A stretch of 64,000 bases of DNA from Mesorhizobium sp. ZC-5. GTDB taxonomy: Bacteria > Pseudomonadota > Alphaproteobacteria > Rhizobiales > Rhizobiaceae. The translations under genes were made by a program, and so were the position numbers. Below are positions 9,254-62,097 of this stretch, in pieces (position 1 is the first letter of the stretch; each line of letters starts with the position of its first letter). Location: assembly GCF_025753855.1 (NCBI RefSeq), contig NZ_JAOWPT010000012.1, forward strand, positions 62,001-126,000. The letters are read 5' to 3'. The notes beneath the pieces were generated by a model. The model ran no database searches. It saw only the letters and a program-made list of their open reading frames with translations, and was not told where the DNA came from.

Positions 9254-10153
9254 TCAAACTCCCGTGGCCCGCGGTTGTCCGGCGGCCGGCGCGAATGCCG
9301 CTGCCGGCACGGGGACGGTACGCTTGGCCCGCAGATAGCTGCGCGGCGGTTCGCCCAGCATGCGCTTGAACATGGTGGTGAAGGCGGGAACGCTTTCGTA
9401 GCCGAGATCGAGCGCAACGCCGGTGATCGGTTCGCCGTCGGCCAGCCGGGGGAGGGCGGCGAACAGGCAGGCCTGCTGGCGCCAGGTCGACAGGCTGAGC
9501 CCCGTCTCGCGGTGGAACATGCGCGTGAAGGTGCGGCGGCTCATGCCGAGCGTCTCGGCCCAGCCGTCGATGGTGGCGCGCGGCGAGGGCGCCGCGACAA
9601 AACTGCGGCAGAGCGCCGCCAGCCGCGGTTCGGCCGGAAACGGCAGCCCGAGCGGCCGCGGCGTCAAATTGGGAATCTCGTGCAGCAGAAGACCCATGAC
9701 CAGCCCGGCGCGGGTGCCGGGATCGGGGTTGGGCTGCAAGGTCACCGCCTCGACGATCAGGCTGCGCATCAGGCCGGTGACGGTGACGACGCGCAGGTCG
9801 CGCGGCAGGCCTTCGAGCGCGTCCGGCTTGACGTAGATCGACCGCATGGCGACGTCACCCAGCATCTCCACCGAATGGTCGACGCCGGCCGGCAGCCAGA
9901 TCGCGTGCTCTGGCGGCACCATCCAGCGGCCCTTGCCGGTGCTGACCATGACCACGCCGGTCAGCGCATGCAGCAGCTGCGAGCGGCTGTGGCGGTGGGT
10001 CGGCACGCGATAGCCATCAGGGTATTCGCTGGGCAGCGCCACCACTTCGCCGCCGGCTTCCTCCAGCCAGCGCAGCCGGTGCTCGTGCAGGCGAACGAGG
10101 TCGGAGCCGATCGCCCCTTCACCCCAGAACCGTTTAGTCATCTGCTGTTTCAT
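9254..10153 (-). CDS. AraC family transcriptional regulator (cupin type)
   Basis: About 299 residues. An N-terminal cupin-like sensor (HRHSRSQLLHALTGVV, then PPEHAIWLPAGVDHSVEM) is followed by a C-terminal double helix-turn-helix, with the first HTH in AETLGMSRRTFTRMFHRETG and the second in VALDLGYESVPAFTTMFKRMLG. The ligand is unknown. The ATG at 10153 (MKQQMTKRFW) is used; a second ATG at 10141 is possible and the ribosome site is weak. It is followed closely by the isoaspartyl methyltransferase-like gene, its most likely target. Confidence 0.85.
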   Translation of the reverse strand: MKQQMTKRFWGEGAIGSDLVRLHEHRLRWLEEAGGEVVALPSEYPDGYRVPTHRHSRSQLLHALTGVVMVSTGKGRWMVPPEHAIWLPAGVDHSVEMLGDVAMRSIYVKPDALEGLPRDLRVVTVTGLMRSLIVEAVTLQPNPDPGTRAGLVMGLLLHEIPNLTPRPLGLPFPAEPRLAALCRSFVAAPSPRATIDGWAETLGMSRRTFTRMFHRETGLSLSTWRQQACLFAALPRLADGEPITGVALDLGYESVPAFTTMFKRMLGEPPRSYLRAKRTVPVPAAAFAPAAGQPRATGV

Positions 10154-10238
10154 GGCCCACTTGCGAAGGTGTGGAGAAAACCATGGAAAACGGGCGAAGG
10201 CAAGCGGGGGGTTGTTGGCGGCTGGTGGGTGCGTCTGA

Positions 10239-10280
10239 CTAGTGATGATCCTGTGAGTCTGCGACCTAGTGATGATCCTG
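10239..10280. repeat. Tandem 15-bp direct repeat at the edge of the low-GC island
   Basis: CTAGTGATGATCCTG occurs at 10239-10253 and again at 10266-10280, 27 bases apart start to start. The second copy contains the stop codon of the NADAR gene. This is where composition changes from high GC (AraC side) to low GC (island side), so it could mark an insertion boundary. Confidence 0.55.
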
Positions 10281-10922
10281 CTCAAAAAATGATGCTTGTG
10301 CCGGCGCAAGTTTTTTTTCGCCGCACGCCTGAGTCATCGAATTTTTCGGGATACCCACCATTATGGGGGGAATGGTGCGCCCGAAAAGTAGAAAATCATC
10401 AACTGGGAGGGGTTGAACCTCAATCAGCTCAGAAGGCTTTTTTTTCAGCTTTTCCCGAAGTTCCATAAGCAACCGACCAAGAACGTTGTTACCGTGCAAA
10501 GCGCCATCGTCAGCAGCCTTTGCACCCCAGTATTCATCCTTGCGAGAATCCTCTACGATGGGGAGGTTGTCCGTTGCCAATAGTAGCTGGCCGAAATTCT
10601 CCCAGTTTTGGGCCAGTTTCACCCTCAGGCACCACTTCATGACTGGAACACGAACATGCTCCCAGTCAGACCGTGAGTACTTGCGATAGGGCTTTGAACG
10701 CATTTTGGCCGTCATTGGGCTGATTTCCCGAATGATCTTGTTCTGCACATCGGGCAGGTGCGGGAATCGGCATGCCTGATAAAGTGCTTCGGCCGTGTGA
10801 ATGCGGATGCCGTTGATTTCAAGAGGGTAGCCAGCTGCCATATTCGAGAGGCCGCCAAATTTCTCATTCGTTTTACGGAACACAACAGCCTGTGTCCGCC
10901 AATAAGTCCTCACCTCTGCCAT
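10266..10922 (-). CDS. NADAR family protein (YbiA/DUF1768-like)
   Basis: A 218-residue cytosolic protein. The NADAR fold spans about 12-160: FGGLSNMAA at 22-30, the acidic helix TAEALYQACRFP with Glu45, the basic MRSKPYR near 74-80, EDSRKDEYWGAK at 124-135 and GNNVLGRLLM at 144-153. NADAR enzymes cleave N-glycosidic bonds in NAD/ADP-ribose-related or riboflavin-pathway molecules; some remove ADP-ribose from guanine in DNA. The tail after 165 is not recognised. The ATG at 10922 overlaps the preceding stop (TGATG), so it is coupled to the PRTase-like gene. Base composition is clearly below that of its neighbours. Confidence 0.85.
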   Translation of the reverse strand: MAEVRTYWRTQAVVFRKTNEKFGGLSNMAAGYPLEINGIRIHTAEALYQACRFPHLPDVQNKIIREISPMTAKMRSKPYRKYSRSDWEHVRVPVMKWCLRVKLAQNWENFGQLLLATDNLPIVEDSRKDEYWGAKAADDGALHGNNVLGRLLMELREKLKKKPSELIEVQPLPVDDFLLFGRTIPPIMVGIPKNSMTQACGEKKLAPAQASFFEQDHH

Positions 10923-11905
10923 CAGTTGGTCTTTCTCCGAAATAGCGGATACCAAGGATCTCCCGCCCAAAGCGCTAGAGGCGCATTGTTGGGGCAATTT
11001 CGGAACGTTACGATCATTGACCCAAAACCTGTCGTTTTGAGGACCACGTTGCCCAAAGGGCGCTGATAAATGCCGAGATTCGGACAGACGGAGCGAATAT
11101 GCACACCTATTTTCAGAAATTCTTGCTCCAACAGGCTTCGACCTTGTTCAGATGAAAAGAACTGCTTTCCCCCTACATTGCCGGCCGTGCGTAAGACCGG
11201 CGGATAGCCGAGGCCTTGTACATAAGCTTGTGTCGCCGCATCATTTGGTATTGCCGTGGGACGCAGCACATCCGATACGTTGGTGTGTGACTTTCGGTCC
11301 TCAATTTCTACCGCTCGCCACCATTTGATCTGGATATTCTTATTTGCTGCAGTTGCAGCCTCCTTAATCTGTTTGTTCGCGTACCATGTACCCGACCTGT
11401 GTTCGCCAATTGTAACCACGTGAACCATTGCCGCAGCGGGGGCAGTTTGGTTGATCCAACCCATCAAATCTGCTCGAATACGGCCACCGGAGAAAACGAC
11501 ATCATCCAAATAAAGGTAAGCCGCCGGGTTCTCACCACATTCGTCAACACTGAAACCGCAGTGGTTGTGAAGGACTTCGCTGAATAACTGCAACATCTCC
11601 TTCTGGCTGTTACCGCCGCCTTGAATTTTCAGAAATTTTACACCGCGCCAAAAGGCGCAGGGATCGTCGCCTGCGAGCTTGGCGTTCGATACGAGACTGC
11701 GCAGAAATCGTAGGATGTTTGCTTTCGTGAAATACGTCTTGCTAAAAACATGCTCAAGCTCCGCGAGCATGGGTTGCTGGACCGGCCCCGGAAATTGTTG
11801 AATCCAACGATCGATGTGCAGCGGTGTGGGAGCTAGAAGTTCCCCGGAACGATAGTCAGCGGTAATGGTTGCAAGCGACTGCAACAAGCGATCTCTTTCA
11901 GACAT
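10922..11905 (-). CDS. Phosphoribosyltransferase-like protein (PRTase-CE type)
   Basis: A 327-residue protein with a type-I PRTase signature: AYLYLDDVVFSGGRIRADL at about 129-147, where Asp134-Asp135 and Ser139-Gly-Gly form the PRPP-binding loop. The C terminus TFRNCPNNAPLALW and WYPLF matches my memory of the PRTase-CE family, described by comparative genomics in predicted conflict/defence operons. Its product is unknown. GAGGGTG lies upstream of the ATG. Two 60-base samples, starting at 11101 and 11281, count to about 42 and 47 percent G+C against roughly 65 percent nearby, which suggests transfer. It is coupled to the NADAR gene by a one-base stop/start overlap. Confidence 0.78.
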   Translation of the reverse strand: MSERDRLLQSLATITADYRSGELLAPTPLHIDRWIQQFPGPVQQPMLAELEHVFSKTYFTKANILRFLRSLVSNAKLAGDDPCAFWRGVKFLKIQGGGNSQKEMLQLFSEVLHNHCGFSVDECGENPAAYLYLDDVVFSGGRIRADLMGWINQTAPAAAMVHVVTIGEHRSGTWYANKQIKEAATAANKNIQIKWWRAVEIEDRKSHTNVSDVLRPTAIPNDAATQAYVQGLGYPPVLRTAGNVGGKQFFSSEQGRSLLEQEFLKIGVHIRSVCPNLGIYQRPLGNVVLKTTGFGSMIVTFRNCPNNAPLALWAGDPWYPLFRRKTN

Positions 11906-11976
11906 AGTTTTTCACCCTCAAGCCCCGCTATGCTACTAGCACGAGATCGAACGCATGTAATCTCAAGGCTGCTTCT

Positions 11977-13506
11977 TCATTCGCCATCCTCCGCAACCGC
12001 CCGGAAAAACGCCTCCGGACTGTCGACTTCGGTCAGCTTGCGCTTGTCGATCAGCCAGAAGCGGTTGCCGACCGCCCTTATGAAAGAGCGGTCGTGCGAG
12101 GCGAGCAGGCAACTGGCCTGATGCGCCAAAAGTTCCGCCTCCAGCGCTTCCTGGCCCTCGATGTCGAGGTGGTTGGTCGGCTCGTCGAGGAGATAGAAGT
12201 TAGGGTTGGCGAGCCTCAGCGCCAGCATCATCAGCCGTGCCTTCTGGCCGCCCGACAGCGCGCCGATTTTCCGCTCCTGCATCTCGATGCTGACGCCCGC
12301 GCCGGCAAGCAGCGAACGCGCCCGCTGGTCGCCGACCTCGAATTTTCGCGAAAGCATCGCCAGCGGCGTGTCGTCGGCACGCATGCCCGACAGCGCCTGG
12401 TCGCTGTAGCCGAGCACCACGGACGGCGTCACCCTGACGGGGGCGGTCACCGTTTCGGGTTCGGCGATGGCGCGGCGGATCAGTTCGATGAAGCGCGACT
12501 TGCCGACACCGTTCCTGCCCAGAAGCACGATGCGGTCGCCCTGACAGATGGGGCGCTTGCCGGTCCGGAACAGCAGCGTGCCGTCCGGCGTCTCAACGGA
12601 AACGTCGTCGAGCGTGATCAGCACCTTGGCGTGGGTGCCGCGATTGGCGAGCTTGATGGCGCCCGACGATTTTTCGCGGTGCGCCGGCAGCGCGGCATCC
12701 TCGAGGCGTTCGGCTCGCTCCCTGAGCTGCTTGGTCTTGACGGTGAGCAGGTCGCTGCCGGAGTTGATGCCGATGTTGTTGAGCTTGGCCGCCTGGCGGC
12801 GCAATTGCTGCGCCACCTTCATGTCGCGCTGGAACTTGCGCTCAGCCGAGGCGTCGACCTCGTCCAGCGCGTCGCGGGCGCGCGAATAGGGCAGCGAAAA
12901 CACCGGCGAGTTTTCCGGGCGCAGGAACAGGGTGCGGTTGGTGGTGGCGTCGAGAAAGGCGCGGTCGTGGCTGGCGACCACCACCGGCACGTCGCGCGGC
13001 AGTGCATTCAGCCAAGTTTCCAGCTGGCTGATCTTGGCGAGGTCGAGATGGTTGGTCGGCTCGTCGAGCAACAGCACGTCGGGATCGGTGACCCAGACGC
13101 GGGCGATCAGCGCCAGCCGCTGCCAGCCGCCGCTCAACCTGTTGACCGGCCGCTCGCGCATCGCCTCGGGAACATCGAGCGAATCCAGCACGACATCGAC
13201 GCGCCACATCTCGCTGTCGGCCTGGTCCGGCGGCAAGGCGTCGGCGACCGCCTGGTGGAAAGTGCGCTCCAGAAGGGCGGCAGGCACCGCCTGTTCGACA
13301 TGGCCGATGCGCAGGCCGCGCGTGCGGGTAATGTCGCCGGTGGTCGGCTCGAAGTCGCCGGCGAGGGATCGGAGCAAGGTCGACTTGCCGCGTCCGTTGG
13401 CGGCGACGATGCCGAGACGGTCGCCGGAGCCGACGACGAGGTTGAGGTTGGAAAAGAGCGGCGCACTCATGGTGACGCCGAGGTTCTTGAGGCTGATCAG
13501 GGCCAT
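11977..13506 (-). CDS. ABC-F family ATPase (Uup/ribosome-protection type)
   Basis: A 509-residue soluble protein with two ABC ATPase domains and no transmembrane segment, the ABC-F pattern; members act on ribosomes, as translation factors or antibiotic-protection proteins. Domain 1 has Walker A AANGRGKST at 35-43 (Ala where Gly is usual), LSGGWQRLALIAR and LLLDEPTNHLD. Domain 2 has GRNGVGKS, LSGGQKARLMM and LLDEPTNHLD. The charged linker lies between about 225 and 300. The start MALISLKNLG is at 13506. A 23-codon leader ORF with competing hairpins lies upstream, suggesting translation-responsive control. Confidence 0.88.
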   Translation of the reverse strand: MALISLKNLGVTMSAPLFSNLNLVVGSGDRLGIVAANGRGKSTLLRSLAGDFEPTTGDITRTRGLRIGHVEQAVPAALLERTFHQAVADALPPDQADSEMWRVDVVLDSLDVPEAMRERPVNRLSGGWQRLALIARVWVTDPDVLLLDEPTNHLDLAKISQLETWLNALPRDVPVVVASHDRAFLDATTNRTLFLRPENSPVFSLPYSRARDALDEVDASAERKFQRDMKVAQQLRRQAAKLNNIGINSGSDLLTVKTKQLRERAERLEDAALPAHREKSSGAIKLANRGTHAKVLITLDDVSVETPDGTLLFRTGKRPICQGDRIVLLGRNGVGKSRFIELIRRAIAEPETVTAPVRVTPSVVLGYSDQALSGMRADDTPLAMLSRKFEVGDQRARSLLAGAGVSIEMQERKIGALSGGQKARLMMLALRLANPNFYLLDEPTNHLDIEGQEALEAELLAHQASCLLASHDRSFIRAVGNRFWLIDKRKLTEVDSPEAFFRAVAEDGE

Positions 13507-20426: not shown

Positions 20427-20825
20427 TCACTTCGATGCGTTGAGCGCTGCGGCGGCGGCAATGAGCGCCTTCAGCGCCTTTTCGTCGATCGTGTCACCCT
20501 CGCGGATATCGATGGCGCGGCGGGTGTTGCCTTCGAGGCTGGAGTTGAAGAGGCCCGAGGGGTCCGGGAGTGCCGCGCCCCTGGCGAAGGTCAGCTTCAC
20601 GACGGCCTTGTAGGTCTCGCCGGTGCAGATGATGCCGGCATGCTCCCACACCGGAACGCCGCGCCACTTCCACGTCTCGACCACCTGCGGGTCGGCCTCA
20701 CTGATGAGCTTTCGGACCCGGGCGAGCGTCTCGCCCCGCCAGTCGCCCAGCTCCTTGATCCGCGCATCGATCAACTGGGAGGGCGAGGCGCCGGTGGTTG
20801 CTTCCGTTGAATTGCTTTTCTTCAT
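20427..20825 (-). CDS. DUF1801 domain protein
   Basis: A 132-residue protein. The DUF1801/YdhG-like features are GDWRGETLARVRKLI, VVETWKWRGVPVWEHAGIIC and VKLTFARGAAL, ending in a helical tail. The function is unknown; the fold is related to iron-chaperone-like YdhG proteins. The stop is one base beyond the convergent GGDEF-EAL stop. A decayed relative lies at 23885-24046, where GDWRGETLARV is still readable. Confidence 0.82.
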   Translation of the reverse strand: MKKSNSTEATTGASPSQLIDARIKELGDWRGETLARVRKLISEADPQVVETWKWRGVPVWEHAGIICTGETYKAVVKLTFARGAALPDPSGLFNSSLEGNTRRAIDIREGDTIDEKALKALIAAAAALNASK

Positions 20826-23869: not shown

Positions 23870-23921
23870 CCGCTCACGCACCGCTCACATCTTCTCGCCG
23901 GGCAATTTGCTGGCCTGCTTC
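23870..23921. repeat. Direct repeat A flanking the RES-domain gene
   Basis: About 51 bases from CCGCTCACGCACCGCTCACA to TTGCTGGCCTGCTTC. They match 26252-26304 with one indel and a few mismatches. The repeat contains the last 11-12 codons of a DUF1801 gene (reading KQASKLPGEKM on the minus strand) and a little 3-prime flank. The two copies bracket a 2.3-kb low-GC segment. Confidence 0.75.
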
Positions 23922-24046
23922 TTGCACGTCGGCTTCCTTGACCCGGGCGAGCGTCTCGCCCCGCCAGTCGCCGGCTTCCTGATCCTCGCATCGATAAGTT
24001 GGGAGGGAGGGCCTGTGGTTGCTTCCGTCGAACCGGTCTTCTTGTA
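23885..24046 (-). pseudogene. Remnant of a DUF1801 gene (fused ends, frame disrupted)
   Basis: Reading from 24046, KKTGSTEATTG then PPSQLIDARI matches the start of the DUF1801 gene at 20825. GDWRGETLARV is then readable only in another frame. The last codons, KKQASKLPGEKM, match the end of the other DUF1801 gene (26268-26798). The middle is missing, so this is a deletion/frameshift scar between two related genes. No start codon or ribosome site is left. Confidence 0.7.
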
Positions 24047-24098
24047 GCCTCTTCGTGGTTTGTTGTCGGCGGAACGACTCGGTTATCATGCTGCCACC

Positions 24099-26042
24099 TC
24101 ACAGGTCTGACCTGAACTTGGGTTCCTTTGCGACCTCAGCGACGCGCTTTTGAGTACGGTCTTGATCGGGATCGGCGATAGCTGCAACTGAACGGATGTA
24201 GCGGTTCACGTACGCTTCCGGCAGATCGTGTTCGACCGCGCCTTGTACAACGAAGTCCTTGTACCAGTCGTAGGGCTTGAGGCCGGTGGTGATGGATTTC
24301 GGGCTGGCAACATACGTGATCGCTTCGACAGGAAGCCCATCAGCATCGATAACGGTTACCTTGGCGTCATCGTAACCGCTGCCAAGGCCCTCGGCCTTAT
24401 CCAAGACAGTCTTATCGGAAAGAGGTACGTCAAAAAGCACGCCGACCACGACCGAGGCGAGATCGCTGGTTTCAAAAGCGTCGCATTTTGCGGAGCCGTC
24501 CTTGCTGGCTTTGTGGAACCGGAGTTCGTGCCCGACCAACGATGCGATACCCTTCGCCCGGCAACGTGAAATTCGATAACGAAGCCGATCTGTACTCATG
24601 TTGGAGCCGTACGCGAAATACGTGAATGTGTCTGGAATGCCTAAGATTTCATCGTCGCCTTCGGCACTTCGGTATCTATTTACGCGGCGCTGGATAGCGT
24701 CATAACGCACCCCCCGGATTCGTACGACTTCTATGTCGCTCACGAGAAGTCTTAAGCGCGGATTGGGAGGAACGAGGTCCTCGATCTCTGAATATGTTTC
24801 CCGGTCAATGATTGATGAGCCAAAGTCGAACACTGAGGGCCGCTTCTTTCTTTCCTTCTTCTTAGCGACTACCAAAGGAGGACGCGGTGTCGTTTCCCAG
24901 ATCGCAATGCTGTCGTCTGCGTCCTCGTCTGTGATCCAACCCATGTTGGCTGTAATTTTCGTTCCAGTTGGCAGCGAGTAGGGCTCCACACCGCTGGCAT
25001 GATGGAAGAGCACTGCGTTACGTCCATCACCTCCCATTTGTGCAGAGGAGAAGAGGATGCCATCCAGCGTGGGCGTGACGTTGGTCGCCAGAAATTCCGC
25101 GACGGTCTGTGTGATAAGGTACTCATCTTCCTCATCGCGCGGCATGATCGGCTTGCTGATCTCTTCCACCAACCGTCGGAAGAATCGGATGCGTCCGACG
25201 ACGGTGCGATAGCGAGCATCGAAGACGCTGATCTGCGCATAGATGCTGTTTAGCTTATCAAGATCAAGGAGCCGTAGTTCTCGTATTATCTCGAAGCGGC
25301 CTATGACAACGTGACTTCCTACCGGCGCTCGGACTTCCGCAATACATGTGTCCTTCTCCTGAGCGCCGTAGAACATTGAGATGCCCTTGGCGTTCATCCG
25401 CCCCGGTCTTGCGAATCTCGACGGCGGTGGTCCTAGTTCCCTGACTGGCGATCTCAGCATCTCTTCGAGTTCAGCCTCAGAAAAGGCGATGCGCCCTCGG
25501 TAAAGGAACGCCTCGTCCGTACCGGAACTGATCATTTTGATGACAGGCTCACCGGACCACGTCTTAAGCTCAGTGAGATCGCCAAAAATTTGCTCTAGCG
25601 CGCTCTGTCCTTCCTTACTGAAATACCGCGCTCGTGTTCGGATTTCGCGAATGAAGAACTCCCATGTTTCTTGGAAATCATAGATGTCGGCAGCCTTTTC
25701 GATATAGCAAGCCTCACTGCCAAATGGATCTGAGTATCCCCCTTCATGGGCCTCCCACGCGGTATCGTCAGAGATTTTATCGCGAACGGCTTCCGCGACC
25801 TCTTTCTCGCAATTGAGCAGGTCGGCGATAAGGTAGACTACGGGCTGGCCATCATCTGCACCCCACTCATCCTGGTGATGCTGGTAGTGCTCGTCTATGA
25901 CTTCGCGGACGCGGCAGGCAAGATCATTAAGAGTGATGGACTTGCGACGTCTGCTACAAAATTCGCAAACTGCACGGTTGCCTTCCGAGCGCATCTCGGC
26001 GCTGAGGGCAGTGTCACCGATGCACTTGTAGCAGATATTCAC
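24099..26042 (-). CDS. Zinc-ribbon/RES-domain protein fused to a gamma-glutamylcyclotransferase domain
   Basis: A 647-residue protein. A CxxC pair at 4/7 and another at 26/29 form a likely zinc ribbon, followed by a helical HEPN/RES-N-terminal-like region to about 165. The RES domain spans about 175-360: YRGR at 181-184, RFARPGRMNAKGISMFYGAQ at 209-228, AEVRA at 235-239, and SSAQMGGDGRNAVLF at 332-346. RES domains are NAD+-degrading toxins in Xre-RES systems. After a basic linker, a GGCT/AIG2-like domain starts at FAYGSNM (476-482) with the expected acidic residue Glu551 in DKAEGLGSGY. No antitoxin gene adjoins it. Sampled G+C is about 45-53 percent. The insert is flanked by direct repeats. 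Confidence 0.8.
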   Translation of the reverse strand: MNICYKCIGDTALSAEMRSEGNRAVCEFCSRRRKSITLNDLACRVREVIDEHYQHHQDEWGADDGQPVVYLIADLLNCEKEVAEAVRDKISDDTAWEAHEGGYSDPFGSEACYIEKAADIYDFQETWEFFIREIRTRARYFSKEGQSALEQIFGDLTELKTWSGEPVIKMISSGTDEAFLYRGRIAFSEAELEEMLRSPVRELGPPPSRFARPGRMNAKGISMFYGAQEKDTCIAEVRAPVGSHVVIGRFEIIRELRLLDLDKLNSIYAQISVFDARYRTVVGRIRFFRRLVEEISKPIMPRDEEDEYLITQTVAEFLATNVTPTLDGILFSSAQMGGDGRNAVLFHHASGVEPYSLPTGTKITANMGWITDEDADDSIAIWETTPRPPLVVAKKKERKKRPSVFDFGSSIIDRETYSEIEDLVPPNPRLRLLVSDIEVVRIRGVRYDAIQRRVNRYRSAEGDDEILGIPDTFTYFAYGSNMSTDRLRYRISRCRAKGIASLVGHELRFHKASKDGSAKCDAFETSDLASVVVGVLFDVPLSDKTVLDKAEGLGSGYDDAKVTVIDADGLPVEAITYVASPKSITTGLKPYDWYKDFVVQGAVEHDLPEAYVNRYIRSVAAIADPDQDRTQKRVAEVAKEPKFRSDL

Positions 26043-26251
26043 CCGGCCCCCCGCCGCAGAAAGAAGACAGCACCATCTATATCACGCCAGTGGTGCACCA
26101 ATGCAAACCGCGTTCAGATGGTGACGATCCCGAATGAAAACTAATCAATCGCTGCTTTGCACGCCACTTTTTTGGCTGTTAATTCAGGAAGTATGACAGG
26201 CAGCGGCCTTTCTTGGCTTACGGGCTGATTATGGCGCCTATTCGCGCCACG

Positions 26252-26304
26252 CCGCTCACGCACCCGCTCACATCTTCTCGCCAGGCAGTTTGCTCGCCTG
26301 CTTC
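26252..26304. repeat. Direct repeat B flanking the RES-domain gene
   Basis: The partner of the repeat at 23870-23921. It covers the 3-prime end of the intact DUF1801 gene (from its stop codon to the KQASKLPGEKM codons) and 16 bases beyond. Between this and the RES gene start (26043-26251) is an AT-rich stretch that must hold the promoter of the RES gene; I see no other gene there. Confidence 0.75.
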
Positions 26305-26798
26305 ACCCAGGCGGCGAACCGGGCTTCGTCGAGTTGGCCCTCGTGGATATCGAGGTAGCGCACTTCCGGATGCTTTGATGTGCCCGGCGGGACGGGATCA
26401 AGCGACGTGCCGCGGAAGAAGGTCACCTTCACGTATTTCGTGAAGCAATGCAGGCTGAGGAACCAGAGGTCGTCCTCGACGCCATAGAAAGGCGAGTTCC
26501 ACTTGACCGCCTTGCGCACGCCGGGCACGGCGCGCTCGATCAGCGCGTCGAGGCGGCGCCCGACCTCGCTTTTCCAGCCCGGCATGGCCGCGATGTAGGC
26601 CTGCACCGGGGCGTCGCCGTAGCCCTTGGTGATCTGCGGGTTGCCGCCGGACAGGAGGACCGGCTGTGCTTTGCCCTCCTTGCTCCCGGATGTCGTGGAC
26701 TGCTTGCCTTTGCCTCCCTTCTGCCTGGCAGGGGCGGGTTGTTTGTGGACGGCGCGCGATGGGCGCTCGGCCTTCCCTGGACTGGTCTTACCGGCCAT
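26268..26798 (-). CDS. DUF1801 domain protein with basic N-terminal extension
   Basis: A 176-residue protein. The first 55 residues are rich in Lys, Ser and Pro (AGKTSPGKAERPSRAVHKQP onward) and probably disordered. The DUF1801 domain follows (AYIAAMPGWKSEVGRRLDAL, VKWNSPFYG, FLSLHCFTKYVKVTFFRG). The ATG at 26798 has GGAGCC upstream; the longer frame is unlikely. It is the last gene of the operon starting with ArsR at 28411. Its function is unknown. Confidence 0.8.
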   Translation of the reverse strand: MAGKTSPGKAERPSRAVHKQPAPARQKGGKGKQSTTSGSKEGKAQPVLLSGGNPQITKGYGDAPVQAYIAAMPGWKSEVGRRLDALIERAVPGVRKAVKWNSPFYGVEDDLWFLSLHCFTKYVKVTFFRGTSLDPVPPGTSKHPEVRYLDIHEGQLDEARFAAWVKQASKLPGEKM

Positions 26799-26809
26799 TT
26801 CAACGGCTC

Positions 26810-27175
26810 CTAAAGAGGTTTCAGCACAAGCCTGCCGTAGGCGATGAACGCGCATATGGCAGCCACGACGAGCCAATAAATCATGGGACCGTAGTTCGGG
26901 TCGCCGGAAAAGATATGCAACACGCAAAAGAGCAGCATTTCCGCGGCTATGATGGCCGCTGCGATCGGGACCGCGAAACCCATCGGCTTATAGAGCGCCG
27001 GGAGGACCAGGGCCACGGCGCAAAGCAGTTCAACGACGCTCATGCCCAGCCAGACGGCGTGGGGAATTGCGCTCAGCGAAGGCACGGTTTGCTCGGAATT
27101 GGAAAACTTCCAGACCGCGCCTATGGCGGTATGCGCGGCGAGAAGGCTTTGGAGAACCCACAAGACAATGTTCAT
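26810..27175 (-). CDS. DoxX-like small membrane protein
   Basis: 121 residues with four hydrophobic helices (MNIVLWVLQSLLAAHTAIGA, AVWLGMSVVELLCAVALVLP, then PIAAAIIAAEMLLFCVLHIF and MIYWLVVAAICAFIAYG). This is the DoxX/DoxX-like pattern; family roles are poorly defined (redox or respiratory membrane partners). It lies 11 bases before the DUF1801 gene and 46 after the VOC gene, within the ArsR-led operon. Confidence 0.8.
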   Translation of the reverse strand: MNIVLWVLQSLLAAHTAIGAVWKFSNSEQTVPSLSAIPHAVWLGMSVVELLCAVALVLPALYKPMGFAVPIAAAIIAAEMLLFCVLHIFSGDPNYGPMIYWLVVAAICAFIAYGRLVLKPL

Positions 27176-57766: not shown

Positions 57767-58741
57767 TTGGCCGCGACGAAAAAAACCGCGACGACAAAGC
57801 CGGCAACGAAAAAGCCGGCAACGAAAACGTCCGCGAAAAAAGCTGCCGCCCGGCCACGCAGCAAGGACAAGCGCGCGCTGCTGGTGGTGAACCCGCGCGC
57901 GCGGCGCGGCAACGGCTCGGTGGCGTCGGCGCGCGACGTGCTGGAAAAGGCCGACATCTCGGTCACCGAGATCAAGCCCGGCAAGGGCGAAGACATCGCC
58001 GACATCATCGCGCGCAATGCCGACCACTACGATCTCGCCATCGTCGGCGGCGGCGACGGCACGCTGAACGCGGCCGCACCCGCGCTGGTGGAGACCGGCA
58101 TGCCGCTCGGCGTCATCCCGCTCGGCACCGCCAACGATTTTGCCCGCACCGTCGGCATCCCCACCGACCCTGCCAAGGCGGCCGAGCTGATCGCCGCCGG
58201 CAAGCTAAGGGACATCGATCTCGGCGAAGTGAACGGCCACCTCTTCTTCAACGTCGCCAGCATCGGCTTCAGCGCCGAACTGGCGCAGGACCTCACCGAA
58301 CATGCCAAGAAGCGCTGGGGCACGCTCGGCTACGGCATCGTCGCGGCGCGGCTTTTGATCCGCTCGCGGCTGTTCACCGCCTTCGTCGATCATGACGGCA
58401 CCACCGAAAAGATCCGCACGCTGCAGGTCTCGGTCGGCAACGGCAAGCACTATGGCGGCGGCATGACGGTGGAGGAAGCGGCGACCGCCGACGACGGAAA
58501 GCTCGATTTCTACAGCCTGGAGGTCGATCACTGGTGGCGGCTTTTGGCGCTGCTGCCCAGCCTGCGCAAGGGCACGCAGGGCAAATGGGACGACGTCCGC
58601 GCCTTCCAGACCACCGAAGTGACGGTGCGCACCAGCAAGCCGAGGCCGGTCAACACCGACGGCGAGCTCTCAACCTACACGCCGGCGCATTTCAAGATCA
58701 GGCCGAAGGCGTTGAAGGTGTTTGTGGGGGAGAAGGGGTGA
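57767..58741 (+). CDS. Diacylglycerol kinase-like lipid kinase with histone H1-like N-terminal tail
   Basis: 324 residues from TTG at 57767 with GGAG upstream. Residues 2-35 are a Lys/Ala/Thr/Pro repeat (TTKPATKKPATKTSAKKAAA). The DAGK catalytic domain follows: VVNPRARRGNGS, the nucleotide loop AIVGGGDGTLNAAA, IPLGTANDFARTVGIPTDP, then FNVASIGFSAEL. It ends in a typical lipid-kinase beta domain. The family phosphorylates diacylglycerol or related lipids. The start lies right behind a RIME-like repeat. Confidence 0.82.
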   Translation: MAATKKTATTKPATKKPATKTSAKKAAARPRSKDKRALLVVNPRARRGNGSVASARDVLEKADISVTEIKPGKGEDIADIIARNADHYDLAIVGGGDGTLNAAAPALVETGMPLGVIPLGTANDFARTVGIPTDPAKAAELIAAGKLRDIDLGEVNGHLFFNVASIGFSAELAQDLTEHAKKRWGTLGYGIVAARLLIRSRLFTAFVDHDGTTEKIRTLQVSVGNGKHYGGGMTVEEAATADDGKLDFYSLEVDHWWRLLALLPSLRKGTQGKWDDVRAFQTTEVTVRTSKPRPVNTDGELSTYTPAHFKIRPKALKVFVGEKG

Positions 58742-58781
58742 GGTTGCGAGCGGCGAAGGTGTCGGAACGCGATGATTATCT

Positions 58782-59008
58782 CTACTTTGCTTTTCGTGCG
58801 ATCTTAAGTGATTCTATAAATCCTTCTTTATAAAAGAACCTTGTTAAGGCCTGCATTAATCGCAAAATCAATAAAAATGCTATTACGCAGATCAAAGGTA
58901 ATATGAGAACGCTGAAATACCCGTCAAAAATGAAATTTGACGCTACAAAAAAATTGTAAGAGGGGCAAAGATAAAAATCCCGACATTTGTATATCGCTCT
59001 TCGCTCAT
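58782..59008 (-). pseudogene. Possible small two-helix membrane protein, frameshifted at a T7 run
   Basis: From ATG at 59008 one frame gives MSEERYTNVGIFIFAPLTIF and stops after a run of seven T. The frame one base back continues FVASNFIFDGYFSVLILPLI into a second hydrophobic helix and ends ESLKIARKAK. One extra T would give 75 residues with two helices. The junction has the slippery form T TTT TTG. The ribosome site is weak and the region is AT-rich. It is either a decayed gene or recoded; low confidence that it is expressed. Confidence 0.3.
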
Positions 59009-59402
59009 GGCTTTGTCTCAACTAGGCTCGCTTGACAATATCCTAAACCGCCATGATCCGCCTCAAGAATTGCGATGATGGGGCTGTCTGGCGAAGGCGC
59101 CGTGCCAACAGGAGTTCATCAGCACTGCGGCGCCTTTCCGCGTCGATCATGGATGGCCGGTTCGGAGCAGGTACTTCGGTCGTTTGTGTCTGTTGCGCGC
59201 GTGGCCAACTCCTGTCGAGGAAATCGCCGCACAAAGGACCGGATTTCTGAACCGATTGGTGGGAATACAGCCCGAAGAAGGAACTCTGATAACCGAGGAT
59301 TACTACCCCAGCAGCCCGGCAGCCCACAGAACCAGTCCCCGATTGCGCTGCTCCGGACCGCTATGGGATTGCTCGTCTTCGGTCATATGCTCCCGCCACT
59401 TG
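59009..59402. other. Gap without a convincing gene
   Basis: Several frames of 60-100 codons are open, but none has a ribosome site, recognisable domain or good composition. It could hold the decayed promoter end of the small membrane protein and otherwise nothing I can identify. Confidence 0.45.
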
Positions 59403-60383
59403 CTACCGGCTTACCGCCAGTGGAAAGCTCAGGGAAAGGAAGACGGAATCGCCTTCCATGTGGTTCGTCGCATTGAATTGATGATAATATCTCAACCGGG
59501 TCGAAACCGGGGCTTGGCCTATCTTGAAGTTATAGCCGATCTGGGCACCTATGCCGGCTATCTCGCCCTTGAAATCTCCAAGGATCGCATGGATCGCCGG
59601 GGGAGATCGATCTCCGGTTAGCTGCTTGTAGTAGTATCCGACCAGCCCCACCGAAAAGCTCTCGGTTAGCTGCTTTGTAATTGCGCCTTCCCAGTGGAAC
59701 TCGTTTCCCGTTTTGTAGTTCGTCGCCTCATTTTCGGCGTTGAACGTGATACCCACAGTGTTGGAGACATCAATTCCCCACTCCGGATGCAGCCAGGTGA
59801 CCGCCGCGTAAAAATCCGCAGCCAGCCTGTGGCGCGCAACATTGGCCAGCGCGCCTTCCGTGTAGTTGCCAATCGGCAAATAGCCTGTGACACCGGACTG
59901 CACATGGAGATTTCCGCTGTTCCAGCCAAGGAACGCGGCAAGTGCGGGGTCGCCGAACGTCGTGGTGTCGTCGCTCAGCTCGAGAATCGGCGTGACAAAA
60001 CCGTCGACGCCGACGCGACCATACGGGGCTGTCAGCGAGAACCCGAGCCTGGCGTTCATCACCTCGGCCGGCGTGACCCAAATCAAGGTTGGGATATTCA
60101 CGAACACGCTGGTGTCGACACCGCCGGCCAGGCGGCCGCCGTCGAGTTCCAAGATCCCGGAAAACGATCCGTCGTACATGAAAACCTGATTGGAGAAAAA
60201 GAGACCGGGCGGCGGGGTCATGCCGGCGCCATTGCTGCGCAAGCCAAGCACATAAACGCCACTGCCGCCTTCAGCGGAATAGGCGCTCGGTCCCGGGTAG
60301 AGACAGCCGACAAGGAGGGACAGCGCAAGCAACGACGGGCGCAAGAAGGCGCCAAGTTGCCGTGGTGATCCTGGTGGCAGCAT
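59403..60383 (-). CDS. SphA-like outer membrane protein (phenol MetA deg family)
   Basis: 326 residues. The signal peptide runs over about 1-37 (SLLALSLLVGCLYPGPSAYS). The mature protein is beta-rich with alternating aromatic/hydrophobic strands (FMYDGSFSGILELDGGRLAG, GNLHVQSGVTGYLPIGNY, VGYYYKQLTGDRSPP) and ends in RLRYYHQFNATNHMEGDSVF, then LSLSFPLAVS. It belongs to the group named for proteins in phenol meta-cleavage and SphA loci, likely a porin or transporter for hydrophobic compounds. No catabolic genes adjoin it. Confidence 0.8.
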   Translation of the reverse strand: MLPPGSPRQLGAFLRPSLLALSLLVGCLYPGPSAYSAEGGSGVYVLGLRSNGAGMTPPPGLFFSNQVFMYDGSFSGILELDGGRLAGGVDTSVFVNIPTLIWVTPAEVMNARLGFSLTAPYGRVGVDGFVTPILELSDDTTTFGDPALAAFLGWNSGNLHVQSGVTGYLPIGNYTEGALANVARHRLAADFYAAVTWLHPEWGIDVSNTVGITFNAENEATNYKTGNEFHWEGAITKQLTESFSVGLVGYYYKQLTGDRSPPAIHAILGDFKGEIAGIGAQIGYNFKIGQAPVSTRLRYYHQFNATNHMEGDSVFLSLSFPLAVSR

Positions 60384-60720
60384 CTCTTCCTCGCAAAGTG
60401 TCGCCCGCTCAGTTCAATTTCTAGGTGAGGCGCGGATATTGCTCAAGTCCGTTCCAGCTTCCTATTTTCCGGAAGCCGTATGTGACTTTTCGCACAGACG
60501 GCGGCGCAGATCAGAGCCTTATTGTTCCATGGCGGTGCGCACCGGAAAGGCGCGGGAAGGAGAGCAAGAACCGACCTCTTCCATGTCGGCCAATCGGGCA
60601 TTCTGGACAGCGACGTCCACTGCGAATCGTTGGCAGCCCATGGGTTCCGCCAAGCAATCGTTGGGCGCTCCATTGTGCCCGTGATCCGTCCTTCAGACCT
60701 CCCTCAAAACAGGATATCAA
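60384..60720. other. Gap between SphA-like and S41-like genes
   Basis: About 340 bases between divergent genes. Several arginine-rich frames are open but none has a recognisable product. It presumably holds both promoters. No clear palindrome was found. Confidence 0.45.
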
Positions 60721-62097
60721 ATGCTCCGGACAATTTCCCAGCGTCTCATTGCGTGCCTCGTGTTGGCGGCCCTGTACTCGACGACGCCTGCTCGGGCGGA
60801 CGACATCCAATTGGCATCGGCGCAGATGCGCGAAGACCTCGTCTTCCTGAAGGAGGAATGGGCGCCACTCGACAAGAGCTTCAGCGACGAGCAACGGCTC
60901 GAGTTCGACCGGCTTGTCGACGAGACAATGGCGGCGACGGACCAGTTAGCGCCGCAGGAGTTCGCTCTCGCAATCATGAGGGCCGCGGCAATCGCGCGCA
61001 ACGGGCACACGAGCGCCAACATCGACCGGTTTCTCGGCGACGATCTTCCCGTGCGCGCATGGTGGTTTTCCGACGGGCTGCATATCGTCAAGACGCATCC
61101 CGAGTTCGCGCGGCTGCTCGGCGCGCGCATCGACAGGATTGGTTCACTCACCACGGCGGACGCGCAGGAACGGATCAAGCCCTATCTGTCCGGTACCGAC
61201 CAGCGCATACGGTTCCTGAGCCCCGGATATCTGGTTAGCCCCGTCGTCCTCAAGCAGATCGGTGCGATTGACGATACGGCGCGCGTTCCGCTGACCCTGC
61301 GACTGGCCGACGGCAAGACGGAGACCGTCGAGCTTCAGGCGTCCGGCGAGGGCGATCCCGGCGACGAGCGCAAGGCAGGTCTCAACAGGGGCTATTCCGT
61401 GCTCATTCCCGACGATGCCGAAATGCCGGGACGCTGGCCGCACCTGCTCGACGGCGTCGGTGATCGCTCGCCGCTCTACAGCAAGCGCAGCGACCTTCAG
61501 TCCCGGTTCCTGGACGGCGAGAAGAAGGTGCTCTACATCCGCAACGATACGGTGAGGAGCATCGACGAAACGCCGCTGGTCGACAAATTCGCCGGTCTCT
61601 TCCACGAGAAGATCCTGCCGACGCAACCACGCTACATCGTCGTCGACCTGCGCCTGAACAATGGCGGCGACTTCTTCAATACGATCCTGTTTTCGCAGGC
61701 CCTGCCGCGGCTCGTGCCGGGTAACGGGCGGGTTTTCGTGCTGATGGGCAGGGCAACGTTCTCCGCAGGGCTCTCCACCGCCGCCATGCTCGAGGGAGCC
61801 GGACCCGACAAGGTAAGCCTCATCGGGGAGACGATGGGAGACAACGCCCGGTTCTGGTCCGAAGGCGAAAGAGTCCCGCTGCCGAACTCGAAAATTGCCG
61901 TTCGCTACAGCCCCCAATTCCACGACTATGAGACCGGCTGCACGGAACTTTCCAGCTGCTATTGGGCCACGGTGGCCTTCGGCCCGCGCGGCATTTCGAT
62001 TGCGCCCGAAACCACGATCGACGTGAATTTCGCGGATTATGCGGCCGGGCGGGATCCCGTGCTGGAAGCAGCGGTCGAACAAATGAAGAAAGACTGA
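60721..62097 (+). CDS. Exported S41-like serine peptidase family protein
   Basis: 458 residues with a signal peptide (ISQRLIACLVLAALYSTTPA, cleavage after ARA near 26). The C-terminal half resembles the tail-specific protease fold: YIVVDLRLNNGGDFFNTILF and VFVLMGRATFSAGLSTAAML, where Ser348 is at the nucleophile position. No PDZ domain is evident and the usual lysine is not identified, so activity is uncertain. Periplasmic. It appears to be monocistronic. Confidence 0.72.
   Translation: MLRTISQRLIACLVLAALYSTTPARADDIQLASAQMREDLVFLKEEWAPLDKSFSDEQRLEFDRLVDETMAATDQLAPQEFALAIMRAAAIARNGHTSANIDRFLGDDLPVRAWWFSDGLHIVKTHPEFARLLGARIDRIGSLTTADAQERIKPYLSGTDQRIRFLSPGYLVSPVVLKQIGAIDDTARVPLTLRLADGKTETVELQASGEGDPGDERKAGLNRGYSVLIPDDAEMPGRWPHLLDGVGDRSPLYSKRSDLQSRFLDGEKKVLYIRNDTVRSIDETPLVDKFAGLFHEKILPTQPRYIVVDLRLNNGGDFFNTILFSQALPRLVPGNGRVFVLMGRATFSAGLSTAAMLEGAGPDKVSLIGETMGDNARFWSEGERVPLPNSKIAVRYSPQFHDYETGCTELSSCYWATVAFGPRGISIAPETTIDVNFADYAAGRDPVLEAAVEQMKKD

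Follow-up and report, generated by a model that had tools for sequence, protein, structure and literature searches.

In a 64,000-nucleotide stretch of the Mesorhizobium sp. ZC-5 genome (hereafter the window, meaning the whole stretch that was analysed) we found a single gene whose product joins a RES domain to a C-terminal gamma-glutamylcyclotransferase (GGCT) domain. The core of this protein, a putative zinc ribbon followed by HEPN/RES-NTD1 (hereafter NTD1) and RES, is already known, and the unexpected part is the GGCT tail. A protein of the same architecture is encoded in a genome of another genus, both enzyme domains are under constraint, and the window copy was horizontally acquired. We tentatively read the protein, at a probability somewhat short of even, as a single-gene, horizontally moved effector that degrades NAD(P), probably acts against phage and has an added arm that cleaves gamma-glutamyl compounds.

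Architecture of the RES-GGCT protein

The open reading frame starts with GTG and encodes 647 residues with no internal stop. As shown in Table 1, the order of its parts is a putative zinc ribbon, NTD1, RES, a C-terminal region common to the closer solo RES relatives, and GGCT. The original prediction had named N-terminal CxxC pairs, YRGR, Arg182 and FAYGSNM with Glu551, and all of these are borne out: the cysteine pairs are C4/C7 and C26/C29, YRGR occupies residues 181-184 (with Arg182) and FAYGSNM residues 476-482, and Glu551 is present; the RES, HEPN_RES_NTD1 and GGCT profiles that it proposed to search each matched over the Pfam cut-offs. HEPN_RES_NTD1 passed narrowly (E = 9.4e-7; 29.7 bits against a cut-off of 27.4), RES matched residues 210-349 with E = 9.2e-16, and the tail was recognised by two overlapping models, GGACT (residues 475-581, E = 3.9e-7) and AIG2_2 (residues 532-614, E = 4.4e-13). 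In a phmmer search against PDB sequences, residues 470-614 matched four entries for human GGCT, 2i5t among them (best E = 2.7e-6), and the domain carries YGSN at residues 478-481 together with the putative catalytic Glu551. The four putative zinc-ribbon cysteines are invariant in an alignment of seven relatives. At E values up to 1 the protein matched nothing in NCBIfam, no PADLOC family, and thus no catalogued anti-phage model, and not the ChaC profile of Pfam.

Table 1. Features of the RES-GGCT locus in window positions, with the loci of type B proteins in the last row
Feature	Position	Strand	Basis or remark
RES-GGCT fusion gene, 647 aa	24099..26042	-	ORF list and Pfam; full-length relative in G047
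Putative N-terminal zinc ribbon, C4/C7/C26/C29	25956..26033	-	CxxC pairs; compare PMC3710099 (main text)
HEPN_RES_NTD1 (PF18870), residues 21-144	25611..25982	-	Pfam, narrow pass
RES domain (PF08808), residues 210-349	24996..25415	-	Pfam and alignments
C-terminal region common to closer solo RES relatives, residues 361-467	24642..24962	-	Alignment
GGCT domain (PF06094/PF13772), residues 475-614	24201..24620	-	Pfam, phmmer and alignment
Low-GC segment carrying the fusion gene	24050..26263		GC 0.543 against 0.631 for the window
41-bp direct repeat (93%), left copy	23881..23921		In DUF1801 hybrid remnant
41-bp direct repeat, right copy	26264..26304		3' end of intact DUF1801 gene
DUF1801 gene B, upstream flank	26268..26927	-	
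DUF1801 gene A	20427..20825	-	Counterpart adjoins that of gene B in sister G147
Type B protein (label given here), ~310 aa, Cys-rich C-terminal stretch	L001-L007, L141, L210, L211		Same GGCT clade

A second copy and the age of the fusion

Genome G047, which belongs to another genus of the same family, encodes the same architecture with 56% identity over residues 1-644 of the window protein (loci L082/L134). The G047 copy is an uninterrupted frame of 707 aa, and the sole TAA in the matched stretch is the frame's own stop; the fusion is therefore not an artefact or a misassembly, which the original prediction had named as a risk, and its claim that RES and GGCT occupy one polypeptide is borne out by Pfam and by this second protein. 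Identity between the two copies is 57% in the zinc ribbon, 50% in NTD1, 67% in RES, 41% in the linker and 58% in GGCT. Nonsynonymous change lies well below synonymous change in both enzyme domains (pN/pS of 0.20/0.75 for RES and 0.29/0.83 for GGCT, with synonymous sites near saturation), so both are under constraint. A RES-half tree of 24 rows pairs the two copies at 100/100 and a GGCT-half tree of 121 rows does so at 100/99, a result that fits a single fusion whose halves have since descended together through a long divergence.

The fusion is rare in the genomes searched, in line with the original prediction, which had called it unusual. Among 298 genomes of the family 36 matched, at 41 places, and only the window genome and G047 span both halves; the same two were the only spanning genomes among 395 family genomes (overlapping the 298; 11 matched at E up to 1e-40) and among 397 genomes of the order (108 matched), and the window genome was the only one among 385 genomes of the class (10 matched at E up to 1e-20). 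In 72,556 plasmid records 792 matched, none covering 80% of the query, and with the GGCT half alone 10 records matched, the best two being fusions of the type B kind described below. Four of 50,697 phage records matched, none across both halves, and a viral set of 2.9 million contigs had GGCT relatives at 69 loci. A search of genome contigs yielded 511 relatives, of which the best 80, all found via the GGCT half, were considered, a selection that may omit near relatives of the window protein. A literature search, largely without subscription journals, found no paper that treats a RES domain and a gamma-glutamylcyclotransferase jointly.

The parent family of solo RES proteins

NTD1 fused to RES, in some proteins with a further N-terminal zinc ribbon, is a published class (main text of PMC3710099); AIG2 and cyclotransferase are absent from that main text. 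The window protein has NTD1, a RES domain after it and what appears by sequence to be an N-terminal zinc ribbon, and it shares with members of this class the zinc-ribbon cysteines, NTD1, RES and the C-terminal region. In contrast to the solo relatives, which lack GGCT, it does not end after the C-terminal region (a feature outside the published definition) but continues into GGCT. The closer solo relatives (L083, L084 and L135-L140) end within about 25 residues of the fusion point, and the more distant ones (L089, L105 and L118) are shorter. The YGSN motif occurs in none of the 22 solo RES rows and in none of 18 relatives from the viral set, whose rows are partly the same as the 22.

As the original prediction had noted, no Xre gene adjoins the fusion gene: the genes scanned on its two sides encode a DUF1801 protein and an aminotransferase, in place of the adjacent Xre/MbcA/ParS antitoxin of a RES-Xre module. 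The same holds for six plasmid relatives, none of which has an annotated Xre abutting it, although their gene annotation has gaps, a few small hypothetical genes are found nearby, and one of the six has a helix-turn-helix gene about 2.9 kb away. The missing Xre beside the window gene is therefore ordinary, this large RES family seems as a rule to go without one, and the window protein is to be grouped with the orphan RES proteins. Among genes within 2 kb of solo RES genes (13 loci, 75 of 75 scanned), none of the 25 Pfam families listed, out of 49, occurred more than three times, and Xre_MbcA_ParS was not among them. The window genome has three other RES genes, two of which abut an Xre_MbcA_ParS antitoxin; the third abuts a 228-aa gene with no Pfam match (L252, 1988-2671), which could be an unrecognised antitoxin.

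Catalytic residues of the RES domain

Characterised RES toxins destroy NAD(P)+. The window protein resembles the toxins of RES-Xre toxin-antitoxin modules (NatT, MbcT, ParT and RES of P. putida) in having a RES domain with apparent counterparts of the R, R, Y, S and N residues named for NatT; it differs from them in its extra domains at both ends, its orphan setting and its length, 647 residues against 168-256 for the three other RES frames of the window genome. The active site of NatT comprises R23, R82, Y93, S184 and N193 (PMC11535050), and the putative equivalents in the window protein are R182 (upstream of the Pfam match), R215, Y225, S333 and N342, which are invariant both in a 7-row family alignment and in all 12 family rows of a larger one. 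The spacing from R82 to Y93 is 11 residues against 10 from R215 to Y225, and that from S184 to N193 is 9, as it is from S333 to N342. When the three other RES proteins of the window genome were included (15 rows, with C14 and C7, two of the three, poorly aligned), R215 and Y225 were common to all rows, and these proteins had K, R and T in column 182, S, P and A in column 333, and N, a gap and N in column 342.

NatT R186 is one of four residues that hold a second phosphate near the nicotinamide (PMC11535050). This residue aligns with Q335 of the window protein, and the position is Gln in 11 of the 12 family rows, which means that phosphorolysis may not apply and that the family may use hydrolysis or transfer instead. 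RES alignment A2, used as a profile against the PDB, had no more than two matches (E = 0.012 and 0.36), which we took as chance, so the mapping onto NatT rests on residue spacing and on the alignment with the other RES proteins of the genome. Alignments A3 and A4, in which RES rows had slid into the GGCT region, were discarded; A5 was sound.

The GGCT domain and its fused clade

Glu551, Gly479 and Tyr557 are present in all 121 rows of the GGCT alignment, and Ser480 and Asn481 in 120. The catalytic glutamate is Glu98 in human GGCT and Glu82 in GGACT (PMC7022552), and the window protein has both the YGSN-type motif and the putative catalytic glutamate of GGCT/AIG2 proteins. It shares these with human GGCT (C7orf24) and bacterial AIG2-like proteins, with about 145 residues alignable, and differs from them in that its GGCT is the fused C-terminal domain of an effector-like protein. 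The lack of a ChaC match argues, if weakly, against glutathione as the favoured substrate.

In the GGCT tree the window and G047 rows fall in a clade of 13 rows (96/93) together with 10 type B rows and L141, which comes from the viral contig set and is also type B; L006/L087 and L007/L088 are identical pairs, which leaves eight distinct type B rows. In every sampled row of this clade GGCT is fused C-terminally, its partner being RES or a type B protein. No Pfam family matched before the GGCT domain in the seven type B proteins scanned, and BLAST detected no similarity of their N-terminal part to the RES half of the window protein; one type B protein gave a sub-threshold ChaC match (E = 0.03). 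The N-terminal part also occurs alone on plasmids, as proteins of 309-316 aa in the three records looked at, one example being the 5.85-kb plasmid pAES4 of Paracoccus aestuarii, and GGCT is therefore a clean C-terminal addition there too, as it is in the window protein. Like the RES-GGCT genes, type B genes sit in plasmid or mobile settings in several cases. Fold prediction for type B (alignment A1, 6 rows) reached a mean pLDDT of 38.6, too low a confidence to support a fold search. A 506-aa frame in G1151 (L244) may be another type B fusion. Other long GGCT frames (L018, L024, L028, L039, L054, L068, L076, L078, L091, L092, L095, L099, L126, L130 and L131) were rejected as fusions by eye, the sequence before the domain looking like a non-coding open frame.

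Neighbouring genes

No defence genes stand beside the window copy, whose neighbours are DUF1801, LysR, aldo/keto reductase and aminotransferase genes. Within about 6 kb of the G047 copy are HamA with a DEAD helicase and, side by side, a PRTase-CE protein and a reverse transcriptase; RepB and RepC are encoded on the same 20-kb stretch. We take the HamA gene beside the DEAD-box helicase to be Hachiman-like. On the contig itself (L134, 257-7789), HamA and the DEAD helicase, the reverse transcriptase and the PRTase-CE protein with a wHTH are grouped near this second RES-GGCT gene, possibly as a defence island on a plasmid-like contig. Three of the six solo RES plasmid loci have Shedu and AbiE, UvrD-type helicase or ABC-three-component genes close by, and the remaining three have no such defence gene annotated. 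Near type B genes, a SMODS cyclase lies about 2 kb from L001, an annotated Shedu protein lies near L210, and one AbiEii and one AbiEi match were taken from sequence as those beside L141.

No recurring partner gene was found among the neighbours of standalone GGCT, solo RES or type B genes. For standalone GGCT, 104 of 132 neighbouring ORFs were scanned (28, mostly small or near-duplicates, were left out by hand) and no Pfam family occurred more than three times among the 25 of 142 families listed; for type B, 66 neighbours, hand-edited from a list of 79, were scanned at 13 loci, three of them without GGCT, and no family occurred more than twice among the 25 of 58 listed. PADLOC searches of the three neighbour sets (E up to 1e-10) returned 116, 126 and 50 model names, which count models and not genes, and the neighbours of standalone GGCT, our contrast set, also matched Shedu, type III methyltransferase and LmuB. 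Since neighbour distances differed between the sets, and the few loci were compared by inspection, the contrast is only suggestive of a defence setting.

Function of the fusion protein

In the effector reading that we favour, the zinc ribbon-NTD1 part would sense or bind a trigger, probably one linked to phage, and the RES part, by analogy with characterised RES toxins, would destroy NAD(P)+ without need of an Xre partner. The C-terminal GGCT, judged by its residues, would be an active second enzyme that converts a gamma-glutamyl compound to 5-oxoproline, with glutathione a less probable substrate than a gamma-glutamyl amine or amino acid. Once the protein is switched on, gamma-glutamyl cleavage would add a second metabolic arm to NAD(P)+ destruction, the two presumably being coupled. 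Because its catalytic residues are kept, we regard GGCT as an enzyme and not as a binding scaffold; because each partner family also exists without GGCT and the RES family shows no antitoxin beside it, we regard the tail as an added activity and not as a replaced antitoxin; and because relatives work without it, the second arm would not be essential. Catalytic residues kept in both domains, the presence of the fusion in two genomes of different genera and the plasmid-like, defence-rich setting of the G047 copy count for the effector reading, and the window copy without defence neighbours and the lack of a PADLOC or NCBIfam model count against it. A comparative-genomics paper states that RES-clade domains are deployed by prokaryotic immune systems (PMC9503650).

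We considered whether GGCT could instead be a regulatory module in cis that, in place of an antitoxin, switches RES off or on by binding a gamma-glutamyl ligand or mark or by taking it away. In keeping with such a role, no antitoxin gene was found beside the window copy, although two of the other three RES genes in its genome abut one; however, the solo RES relatives lack both GGCT and an annotated abutting Xre, so that no antitoxin seems to have been replaced, and GGCT domains of this clade also sit on type B proteins, in which no RES domain was detected. The control of toxicity that the original prediction had proposed for the cyclotransferase fares poorly on the same ground, as the solo relatives (22 of 22 rows lacking YGSN) manage without it, and we hold regulation in cis to be unlikely. 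GGCT might also act on a product of a phage or mobile element, such as a small molecule or a base that carries a gamma-glutamyl group, the fusion serving to bring GGCT to wherever the N-terminal part binds. Its relatives on viral contigs and the occurrence of one GGCT clade on two different N-terminal partners would agree with this, but no phage substrate with a gamma-glutamyl group was identified, a literature search on cyclotransferases and hypermodified phage DNA found no paper and no support was found for GGCT enzymes acting on macromolecules, which makes such a role quite unlikely.

The two other explanations give the fusion no part in defence or little function at all. A passenger tail, left by an accidental in-frame fusion of little functional consequence, would suit a fusion found in only two genomes and an insertion site with repeats and a hybrid remnant, yet the tail has been kept at 44% protein divergence with its catalytic residues in place and under constraint, and its clade recurs on a second partner in the eight distinct type B rows; we consider this explanation very unlikely. 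A housekeeping or metabolic bifunctional enzyme of NAD and gamma-glutamyl metabolism would sit comfortably among the metabolic and regulatory neighbours of the window copy, and the varied neighbours of standalone GGCT genes (no listed Pfam family above three in 104) are compatible with it. Such an enzyme is at odds with a sporadic distribution, a low GC, a site left empty in a sister genome and a plasmid-like second copy, and we judge it highly improbable.

The NatT paper (PMC11535050) states that no RES toxin-antitoxin system has been implicated in bacterial immunity and describes the role of the RES family as unresolved. An orphan RES protein with a second conserved enzyme domain offers a concrete handle on the role of RES in immunity, and two point mutants would separate the RES and GGCT arms. 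A broader proposal is that a GGCT tail was added to two unrelated orphan mobile proteins able to sit in defence islands, gamma-glutamyl cleavage being an undescribed anti-phage arm that is here joined to NAD(P) destruction; we put this forward as speculative and somewhat unlikely. Should the GGCT arm prove important, the known outputs of bacterial defence would come to include gamma-glutamyl chemistry.

Insertion site

GC content falls to 54% over the 2.2 kb that carry the fusion gene, against 63-67% in the genes beside it, and GC as low as that of the segment was found in 11 of 1236 sliding windows of the same size, a count that includes the windows covering the segment. The two DUF1801 genes are direct neighbours in sister genome G147, where the place of the insert is empty; in sister G059 the flank used was unmatched. 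The low GC and the empty place in G147 establish that the window copy was horizontally acquired. In the window the two DUF1801 genes are about 5.4 kb apart and enclose the LysR, aldo/keto reductase and aminotransferase genes, a hybrid remnant and the fusion gene. The remnant (23881-24043) resembles one intact DUF1801 gene in its 5' part and the other in its 3' part, and the two intact genes together with this hybrid suggest tandem duplication and unequal crossover at the insertion site. Two other stretches of the window with a GC of 0.56 or less, at about 9601-12660 and 58601-60960, are possibly acquired.
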